Below, in pieces: positions 51,511 to 54,299 of a stretch of DNA of 64,000 nt. Position 1 is the stretch's first letter. Every line of letters begins with the position of its first letter. Below the pieces are notes generated by a model that did no database searches, had not been told where the DNA came from, and worked only from the letters and a program-made list of their open reading frames with translations. The translations under genes and the position numbers were made by a program. The DNA comes from Planococcus sp. PAMC 21323 (GTDB lineage Bacteria > Bacillota > Bacilli > Bacillales_A > Planococcaceae), in NCBI RefSeq assembly GCF_000785555.1, contig NZ_CP009129.1, positions 310,001 to 374,000 on the forward strand, in the 5' to 3' direction.

Positions 51511-52149
51511 ATGACAAACGTTTTAGTAGTAAAAGCAAATAACCGCCCCGCTTCTGAAGGGGTTTCAAGTAAAATGTACGAAGTATTCATGGATACAATC
51601 GGTACAGGCACGGAGCTTAACATCAATACGTTTGATGTCTTTAAAGAAGATATGCCGTATTTTGGTCAAGATTTCTTTGATGCTATGCAAAAGTCAGCGC
51701 AAGCTGAACCGTTAAACGAACTTGAACAACGCATTTTGACTGCGGCGAACAAATCAATGGATGCTTTTATGGAAGCAGATGTAGTGGTTTTTGCATTCCC
51801 ATTATGGAATAAAACAATTCCAGCACCATTGCAAACTTTCATTGATTACGTTTACCGTGCAGGTGTAACATTCAAGTACACACCAGAAGGTCCAGTTGGC
51901 CTTGTGCCCGATAAAAAAGTGATCATTTTAAATGCACGCGGTGGAGTGTACTCGACACCAGAAATGGCTCCTGCTGAAATGAGCGTTAACTATGTTCGCT
52001 TAATTATGGATTTCTTCGGAATCACAGATATCGAAGAAGTAATCATTGAAGGACATAATATGTACCCAGATCGTGCGGAAGAAATTAAAGCTGATGGCAT
52101 GAAACGTGTAGAACAAGTAGCTAATTCACTAATTAAAGTGTACGCATAA
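51511..52149 (+). CDS. azoR: FMN-dependent NADH-azoreductase
   Basis: 212 aa flavodoxin-like fold. 'MTNVLVVKANNRPASEGVSS' (FMN phosphate loop), 'VVFAFPLWNKTIPAPLQTFI' and 'KKVIILNARGGVYSTPEMAP' match AzoR/azoreductase (YocJ/YvaB) proteins. It reduces azo compounds and quinones by two electrons, protecting against thiol-reactive quinones. It forms a homodimer in the cytosol. AAGAGGAG precedes the ATG and a terminator follows, making it a single-gene unit; an MhqR-like control is possible but no site was found at this gene. Confidence 0.9.
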   Translation: MTNVLVVKANNRPASEGVSSKMYEVFMDTIGTGTELNINTFDVFKEDMPYFGQDFFDAMQKSAQAEPLNELEQRILTAANKSMDAFMEADVVVFAFPLWNKTIPAPLQTFIDYVYRAGVTFKYTPEGPVGLVPDKKVIILNARGGVYSTPEMAPAEMSVNYVRLIMDFFGITDIEEVIIEGHNMYPDRAEEIKADGMKRVEQVANSLIKVYA

Positions 52150-52159
52150 TTTTGTGATA

Positions 52160-52190
52160 GAGGACAACCTTCATTGGTTGTCCTCTTTTT
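52160..52190 (+). terminator. Terminator of azoR
   Basis: GAGGACAACC / GGTTGTCCTC stem with five T. It ends six bases before the GACAGTA array. Confidence 0.85.
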
Positions 52191-52195
52191 ATTTG

Positions 52196-52672
52196 GACAG
52201 TAAATGTGGAGGAGTGGACAGTAAACTAGCTGAATCGGACAGTATTTCGGAGATTTGGACAGTATTCAACGGAAACTCGACAGTATATCCAATTTTCCCC
52301 TTTTCCAATCAACAACCCCTTGATACCCAAGCCCAGGAAAGCGCAAAGTCGCGCTTTCCGCTAAACCATATGAATTTTTGATTTCGACAGTAAGTGGTGT
52401 GAATTAGACAGTAAACTAGCTGAATCGGACAGTATTTCGGAGATTTGGACAGTATTCGACGGAAACTCGACAGTATATCCAATTTTCCCCTTTTCCAATC
52501 AACAACCCCTTGTTACCCAAGCCCAGGAAAGCGCAAAGTCGCGCTTTCCGCTAAACCATATGAATTTTTGATTTCGACAGTAAGTGATGTGATTTCGACA
52601 GTAAACTAGCTGAATCGGACAGTATTCTAAAGATTTGGACAGTATACAACGGGAACTCGACAGTATATCCAA
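52196..52672. repeat. GACAGTA array in 190-bp tandem units
   Basis: GACAGTA occurs 15 times, starting at 52196, 52217, 52238, 52258, 52279; 52386, 52407, 52428, 52448, 52469; 52576, 52597, 52618, 52638, 52659. Steps inside each group are exactly 21, 21, 20, 21, and groups repeat every 190 bases. Units 1 and 2 are nearly identical over their length; the third is cut off after its five motifs. Each full unit also holds a perfect 9-bp hairpin, GGAAAGCGC/GCGCTTTCC, at 52336-52359 and 52526-52549. No credible gene lies inside. Function unknown. Confidence 0.9.
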
Positions 52673-52690
52673 ATTACTGGAAAAATATTG

Positions 52691-52715
52691 GGTTAAGAAT
52701 TTCCATTAGGGGTAG
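52691..52715 (+). promoter_or_regulatory. Candidate sigma-B promoter of the Rieske/FAD gene
   Basis: GGTTAA (52691-52696), 13-base spacer, GGGTAG (52710-52715), each 5 of 6 to the sigma-B consensus GTTTAA / GGGTAT with the usual spacing. Start near 52722, 30 bases before the GTG. Confidence 0.5.
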
Positions 52716-52751
52716 ATAGGGAGTAAAAAGCTATCGAGGAGGAATGACGAG

Positions 52752-54299
52752 GTGCATAACGAACATGAGAGCCGAATTCCACATGAACAAAAGTCATTTT
52801 GGAGAGAGTACAAAGACATTCCAAGCTATCCTGCATTACAGGCAAATGAGTCGACCGATATCGCTGTCGTCGGTGGAGGAATGGTTGGCGTAATTAGTGC
52901 TTACTTATTAGCCAAAGCGGGACGGAAAGTAACATTAATCGAAGCTGGAAAATTGGTTGATGGGGTAACGGGGCGAACCACCGCAAAAATAACGGCGCAA
53001 CACGGATTGTATTATGATTCCTTAATTCAAGTGGCTGGAGAAGAACAGGCAAAACTGTACTATCAAGCGAATATGGACGGATTAAATTTTATTGAAAAAA
53101 CAGCAAAAGAACTGTCCATTGACTGTGATTTTTCGCATCATAATGCATTTGTGTATGCTAACACAGCTGCTGGAGCAAAAAAAATTGAAAAAGAAGCTGA
53201 AGCGTATATGAAGTTAGGCATTGACGGCGAGCTTGCAAAGGATGAAGTAGAATTGCCGTTTTCTGTAGAAGAAGCAATTGTCATGCGCAATCAAGCTCAA
53301 TTTCATCCTGTGAAATTTTTGGCTGGTTTGATCAAAGAAATTGAACGACTGGGTGGAAAAATTTACGAACAAACGCGGGCAATGAAAATATTGAGCAAAA
53401 ACGATCCAGTCATACAAACTGAAAACCTGTCTCATTTATCGTGCAACAAAGTCATTGTTGCCAGTCATTATCCTTTTAATGATTTTGATGGCATGTATTT
53501 CTCACGCTTAACAGTCAATCGCTCGTACGCTATTGCAGCTAAAATAAGTGGGAACGTTCCGAACGATATGTACATTAGTGGAGACATGCCTTCCCGCTCT
53601 TTGCGTTACGCAACCGGCGAGAATGGTGAAAAGCTATTATTGATAGGTGGCGATGGCCATGCAACGGGTAAAAGTTCGAGCGAAACAATCGAGCATTATT
53701 ACAATCTTGAAAAGTTTGGTGACGAACATTTCGGAATTGAAGAAGTTCCATATCGTTGGTCATCACAAGATATGACAACGCTTGATACAATCCCTTATAT
53801 CGGCACCATCACAGCAGGCTATGACAATATTCTAGTTGCTACTGGCTTTCATAAATGGGGAATGTCGAACGGCGCATTAGCCGGAATGTTGCTCAGCGAC
53901 CAAGTATTGGGCAAAGAAAATAGGTACGCAGCCGTTTTTGATCCAACGCGCACGAAAGTGAAATCTAAAGATGCGGTGAGCTTTGCAAAAGATAATGCAT
54001 CGGTAGCAAAAGCGTTAGTTACAGGCAAGTTACAACGAACCACTAAAACAGTTGACGACTTGAGCAAAGACGAAGGTTCGCTAGTCAAAGTTGGTAAAAA
54101 GAAAGCAGGAGGATACCGCGATGAGTACGGTCAAGTCCACCTTGTCGATACGGCGTGCACGCATATGGGTTGTGACGTTAAGTGGAACGATGCGGAACGT
54201 TCTTGGGACTGTCCGTGCCACGGATCACGTTTTTCGTATACCGGAGATGTACTGAATGGACCAGCTGTAAAACCTCTTAAAAAAATACAGGAGGAATAA
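52752..54299 (+). CDS. FAD-dependent oxidoreductase with C-terminal Rieske domain (YhfW-like)
   Basis: 515 aa starting with GTG (AGGAGG about 9 bases ahead). Residues about 30-400 form a DAO-type FAD domain ('DIAVVGGGMVGVISAYLLAK' dinucleotide fold). The last ~90 residues are a Rieske domain with cluster ligands C-T-H and C-P-C-H in 'DTACTHMGCDVKWND' and 'WDCPCHGSRF'. The two domains are joined by a basic linker. Substrate unknown; Bacillus YhfW has the same layout. Likely a general-stress redox enzyme if the upstream sigma-B-like promoter is real. The GACAGTA array lies immediately upstream. Confidence 0.85.
   Translation: MHNEHESRIPHEQKSFWREYKDIPSYPALQANESTDIAVVGGGMVGVISAYLLAKAGRKVTLIEAGKLVDGVTGRTTAKITAQHGLYYDSLIQVAGEEQAKLYYQANMDGLNFIEKTAKELSIDCDFSHHNAFVYANTAAGAKKIEKEAEAYMKLGIDGELAKDEVELPFSVEEAIVMRNQAQFHPVKFLAGLIKEIERLGGKIYEQTRAMKILSKNDPVIQTENLSHLSCNKVIVASHYPFNDFDGMYFSRLTVNRSYAIAAKISGNVPNDMYISGDMPSRSLRYATGENGEKLLLIGGDGHATGKSSSETIEHYYNLEKFGDEHFGIEEVPYRWSSQDMTTLDTIPYIGTITAGYDNILVATGFHKWGMSNGALAGMLLSDQVLGKENRYAAVFDPTRTKVKSKDAVSFAKDNASVAKALVTGKLQRTTKTVDDLSKDEGSLVKVGKKKAGGYRDEYGQVHLVDTACTHMGCDVKWNDAERSWDCPCHGSRFSYTGDVLNGPAVKPLKKIQEE

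Follow-up and report, generated by a model that had tools for sequence, protein, structure and literature searches.

Helically phased GACAGTA arrays at fixed intergenic positions in Planococcus: putative binding sites of a sequence-specific protein

The window analysed here is a stretch of 64,000 nucleotides of Planococcus sp. PAMC 21323 (positions 310,001 to 374,000 of contig NZ_CP009129.1), and between the genes for an azoreductase-like flavodoxin-fold protein and a Rieske-type oxidoreductase it carries 15 exact copies of the heptamer GACAGTA, all on the + strand and arranged as three 190-bp units of five (52196-52665; Table 1). The series of unit 1 is repeated at +190 and +380, and every copy, together with its spacing and the 190-bp period, was found where a preliminary description of this DNA, made from the letters alone, had placed it. 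In the window as a whole GACAGTA occurs 22 times against 4.3 expected, a number reached by none of 100 shuffles, and TRF reports for the array a period of 190 with 2.4 copies and 95% matches. The last motif lies 86 bp before the start of the Rieske-type gene, and in the interval (52684-52716) there is a sequence like GGTTAA-N-GGTAGA, which we take to resemble a sigma-B promoter.

Table 1. Features of the array locus and its neighbours, in positions of the window.
Feature	Position	Strand	Remarks
Upstream gene, Flavodoxin_2 fold (azoreductase-like)	51511..52149	+	context
Intrinsic terminator of the upstream gene	52159..52186	+	array starts 10 bp past the terminator
Unit 1, five GACAGTA sites at 52196, 52217, 52238, 52258 and 52279	52196..52285	+	steps 21, 21, 20, 21 bp
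Linker hairpin GGAAAGCGC/GCGCTTTCC, between units 1 and 2	52336..52359	+	loop AAAGTC; expected number 0
Unit 2, five GACAGTA sites	52386..52475	+	steps as unit 1
Linker hairpin GGAAAGCGC-AAAGTC-GCGCTTTCC, between units 2 and 3	52526..52549	+	expected number 0
Unit 3, five GACAGTA sites	52576..52665	+	steps as unit 1
Terminal element TATCCAAATTACTGGAAAA, TCCA..TGGA inverted repeat	52666..52684	+	defined array end
Downstream gene, FAD-dependent oxidoreductase with C-terminal Rieske domain	52752..54299	+	context

The hairpin that had been described about 50 bp past the fifth motif is present after units 1 and 2 but not after unit 3, which carries the tail TATCCAAATTACTGGAAA in its place. As the full TCCA..TGGA tail is found in the window on unit 3 only, the locus is best described as three copies of one unit, joined by linkers that bear the hairpin; the 190-bp period is merely a local triplication of what is normally a single five-site unit, and the hairpin lies outside the basic unit. 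Among the loci fetched, the exact hairpin was found at array loci only, mostly as the linker of tandem units. The view that the array is not a gene is borne out, as is the exclusion of CRISPR, for which repeats of about 23-47 nt with unique spacers are required: the constant core here is 7 bp, and the spacers are partly conserved, both by position and between species.

Across the 3.2-Mb genome, a search allowing steps of 19-23 bp gave 69 GACAGTA pairs, every one of them at 20 or 21 bp, whilst the reversed control pattern gave no pair in this genome. The 69 pairs group into 16 loci. A looser search added almost no degenerate copies; with one mismatch allowed, 20 arrays are recognised, 17 of which consist of exactly five sites spaced 20 or 21 bp apart, and this strict spacing supports the earlier proposal of phasing by two helical turns. 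Most arrays end in the tail TATCCA-N4..6-TGGAAA (in two species, 28 of the 43 arrays have it; background 2.2%), this inverted repeat standing at one array end only. In a site model of the 21-bp units the information is held in AWWYS-GACAGTA-WWY, about 15 bp, with the middle six positions nearly free; in the 20-bp units the missing base falls in this unconstrained centre and not in the footprint. One five-site array (G000:C1:2537919-2538009) runs into an amidohydrolase ORF from its 3' end, so that the last codons of this ORF are array sequence. A second array family was also seen in this genome, G000, where GAGGTGCG recurs at 21-bp steps at G000:C1:2271848-2272231 (+), with further loci at 1241895, 2251850 and 2312319 (-); one locus of this family holds about 19 copies, the spacers of which hardly differ.

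In a second species of the genus (G006) every one of the 16 loci is matched by an array at the orthologous site, in unchanged orientation, and the flanks of the two genomes are mostly 76-92% identical there. Comparison of 15 orthologous array pairs shows identity at 500 of 504 motif positions (99.2%) and at 544 of 781 spacer positions (69.7%); the former value is somewhat inflated, since arrays were recognised by the motif itself with one mismatch allowed, although none of the 16 loci was missed. At spacer positions 11-13 identity falls to 42%, against 57% at 4-fold degenerate sites in 55 gene pairs of the fetched regions. The motif is thus under strong purifying selection, whilst the centre of the spacer changes at roughly the neutral rate.

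The genes that flank the 16 loci have no common function. Seven of the loci lie between convergent genes, compared with 20% of the intergenic gaps of the window as delimited by a simple gene caller (p=0.027), and four are divergent by reading of the flanking genes; the 36 classified loci of named relatives comprise 13 convergent, 22 tandem and 1 divergent. The arrays sit at fixed intergenic places, by preference beside the 3' ends of genes, and at two sites followed through the genus, downstream of hemQ and of pepF, they are always antisense to the 3' end of the neighbouring gene. Terminators or terminator-like hairpins flank several arrays besides that of the window. There is a weak origin-proximal bias (12 of 16, p=0.04), the origin being placed near the contig start by inference only, from the clpC and radA genes there.

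GACAGTA arrays were found in 29 of 46 species of the genus, the named relatives being Planococcus and Planomicrobium, which disposes of the possibility, raised in the preliminary description, that the array is a one-off local duplication absent from relatives. Within the family (261 genomes) the three-copy pattern was found in this genus only; in other genera, arrays with degenerate spacers were found, among the matches listed, in Fictibacillus, Neobacillus, Siminovitchia, Metabacillus, Fredinandcohnia, Oceanobacillus and several Bacillus. More distant phyla also gave matches (Legionella, Bacteroidales, Polyangium etc.), but for the most part these look like near-perfect tandem or coding repeats and not like members of this family; a plasmid similarity search gave no match. 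One clade of the genus has no match to either genus-wide pattern and no array at the hemQ site, so that the function would be dispensable there or else served by an unrecognised motif. Ten viral contigs (L253-L262) match the three-copy pattern, which does not by itself imply membership of the family.

The preliminary description knew of no named family with this arrangement. However, a class of bacterial tandem repeats of 20-21 nt with a short constant signal does exist, found in Bacillus and others (Subirana and Messeguer, 2019, PMC6749651; 2021, PMC8161180). According to the later paper its members are of constant length, with a short constant signal, a variable remainder and many non-coding loci per genome; the authors noted the two helical turns and proposed nucleoid proteins. 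The GACAGTA arrays share this anatomy, having at least four repeats of a constant 20-21 nt (all 69 pairs; five copies in 17 of 20 arrays), a short constant sequence with a variable remainder, and several non-coding loci in one genome. They depart from the species-specificity of the class, reportedly a tendency with few exceptions and not its definition, being shared by much of the genus and with Fictibacillus, Neobacillus, Siminovitchia and others. New with respect to the main text of PMC8161180 are the five-site unit with its terminal inverted repeat, the sharing across species and genera, the conserved positions, the measured selection and the switching of the motif.

This switching is most readily followed downstream of hemQ, where most array-bearing species have arrays, in one orientation. 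The motif there is GACAGTA in G000, G006, G008, G009, G011, G045 and others, and GAAAGTA in G002, G017, G031 and G034; these last four species and G037 have GAAAGTA in every, or almost every, copy at hemQ and pepF. Downstream of pepF the two groups of species are again split between GACAGTA and GAAAGTA, and in the pepF tree the GAAAGTA species form one group, sister to the GACAGTA clade, with weak support inside the group. G044 falls inside the GAAAGTA group of this tree, yet has GACAGTA at hemQ, and G010 has both motif types, with about 26 arrays of which about 23 are pure by our own count. At the hemQ site of other species there are arrays of GGTGCG, GTTGCG or TTCATGT, again with a 20-21-bp step and sometimes with two kinds in series; the 21-bp-step motifs GTTGCG and TTCATGT were seen there in G003, G010, G029 and in G026, G032. 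The change of motif is concerted, and co-evolution with a trans-acting reader would be expected to alter every copy of dispersed arrays at nearly the same time. The pattern points to trans-acting DNA-binding proteins which switch specificity and may load cooperatively on one face of the helix. Tandem repeats of 20-21 nt in bacteria have until now been without demonstrated function, and seen mainly as species-specific curiosities; the fixed positions, the conservation of the motif far above that of 4-fold sites and the concerted change speak directly for selection exerted by a factor that acts in trans.

The main rival to a reader of DNA, in our estimation a rather unlikely one, is that the arrays act as RNA, being transcribed so that GACAGUA or its complement is read by an RNA-binding protein or a base-pairing partner. 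A role of this type was suggested for the TAACTGA repeats of Beggiatoaceae (PMC4679880), and it is among the options raised for Bacillus tandem repeats, transcription of the 52-nt class in B. coagulans being reported in PMC8161180; the constantly antisense arrays at hemQ and pepF would also fit. However, the array of the window comes after a terminator, with terminator-like hairpins flanking several others, promoter-like sites are not above shuffles, and the strict 20/21 step with its neutral spacer suits helical phasing better than RNA binding. Six of eight single-strand folds were no better than shuffles, z falling below -2 in two, of which the sense strand of one array (L170, -3.2) clearly beats its shuffles and that of unit 3 in the window gave -2.2. 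An Rfam scan of the region returned nothing above the gathering score. A selfish or non-autonomous repeat, in which the motif is kept for spread by a transposase or recombinase and has no function for the host, is likewise unlikely. The arrays are multi-copy and intergenic, several stand side by side at one site, and there is a lineage-specific gain in G006, G008 and G009, all of which such a repeat would explain; against it, the arrays are stable at orthologous places, with near-neutral spacers and an intact motif. The sole gain that could be dated is also of the wrong kind. Where the insert lies, only one terminator stands in the other species read, and the insert resembles the array locus at 457936 of the PAMC 21323 genome, upstream DNA included, carrying in G008 the 3' end of the gene neighbouring the 457936-type locus as well. 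This looks like segmental copying of an array with a fragment of the adjacent gene, without terminal repeats, and precise transposition was rejected for it. More generally, the inverted repeat at one end only does not agree with the terminal inverted repeats and precise empty site of a transposable element or MITE. In REP/BIME elements a palindromic unit goes with a RAYT transposase; here the 21-bp units do not each carry a hairpin.

Very unlikely is local regulation, one of the roles considered in the preliminary description, in which the sites would serve a transcription factor acting on the Rieske oxidoreductase gene, and on analogous neighbours elsewhere. The array is well placed upstream of this gene and holds the same place in G006, but at the other 15 loci the neighbours are housekeeping genes unrelated to it, and the share of loci between convergent 3' ends and the near absence of divergent ones among the named relatives speak against it. 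As for chance or neutral tandem duplication, it may account for the triplication, a local event with 95% matches between copies, but as the origin of the arrays it is extremely improbable, and for the five-site unit it is refuted by the 16 loci, their conserved positions and the contrast of 99% motif with 42% free-spacer identity.

On balance we think it probable, judging from sequence, that the array offers binding sites to a putative sequence-specific DNA-binding protein, whose likeliest role would be architectural, and the protein-loading array is the best of the options originally offered. One putative site would be the 15 bp or so of AWWYS-GACAGTA-WWY, and five of them at 20/21 bp, two turns of the helix, would set the protomers on one face of the duplex, touching one another and loading cooperatively; the TCCA..TGGA inverted repeat would close the array on one side, and about 16 such arrays would be distributed at fixed intergenic places round the chromosome. 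We infer both that the selecting agent is a DNA-binding and not an RNA-binding protein and that its binding is cooperative. An architectural role (nucleoid organisation, anchoring or domain marking) is favoured over control of single genes because the neighbours are unrelated, the positions fixed and the copy number modest, and we regard it as possible, if short of probable. Tentative, too, is a broader proposal, which we would doubt as it stands, of a hitherto undescribed chromosome-organising system built on dispersed, helically phased five-site arrays, with a cooperative protein whose specificity switches in concert from species to species, the GACAGTA, GAAAGTA, GGTGCG, GTTGCG and TTCATGT specificities sharing the same chromosomal places; it would be a bacterial parallel to fast-evolving centromeres or PRDM9-type sites. 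Intrinsic curvature as the shared property seems unlikely, as the GC-rich GGTGCG class has an equal step. A resemblance to SpoIIID and Spo0A boxes was considered and dropped, since neither the base beside the motif nor the GAAAGTA variant agrees with them. The two array types, GACAGTA and GAAAGTA, which may even occur together in a single species, are defined probes for isolating the factor, and make the question testable.

Several known systems share single traits with the arrays. Plasmid replication iterons are direct repeats, several in number and about two helical turns apart, with an inverted repeat nearby, both of which traits are also found here; however, iterons occupy a single locus with an adjacent rep gene, whereas the arrays form at least 16 dispersed chromosomal loci, and the flanking genes that were read include no rep. 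The plasmid centromeres to which ribbon-helix-helix proteins bind consist of short direct sites, bound cooperatively, in a single compact locus beside the par genes, and parC of pSK41, reportedly with 20-bp repeats, is one of them; the arrays are likewise short direct sites, but dispersed, and have no par genes nearby. The TAACTGA repeats of Beggiatoaceae are also intergenic heptamers in direct repeat, with 2-6 copies at many loci (PMC4679880), but they stand mostly just upstream of start codons with a proposed translational role, and no fixed two-turn step is reported in the sections of that paper considered here. TIGR arrays, which have two alternating repeats, short spacers and a tas gene that encodes a Nop domain (PMC12045711), are similar in the alternation of short repeats with short spacers. 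TIGR-Tas was rejected, as there is one motif per array, the spacers are not guide-like and the genome has no match to PF01798 (Nop), a model that matches archaeal controls only, so that a divergent Tas could be missed. In G174, G190 and G216, which belong to another genus of the family, the control with the reversed motif, ATGACAG at steps of 20-21 bp, gave 1, 7 and 17 matches, so that yet another motif seems to form arrays of this kind there.
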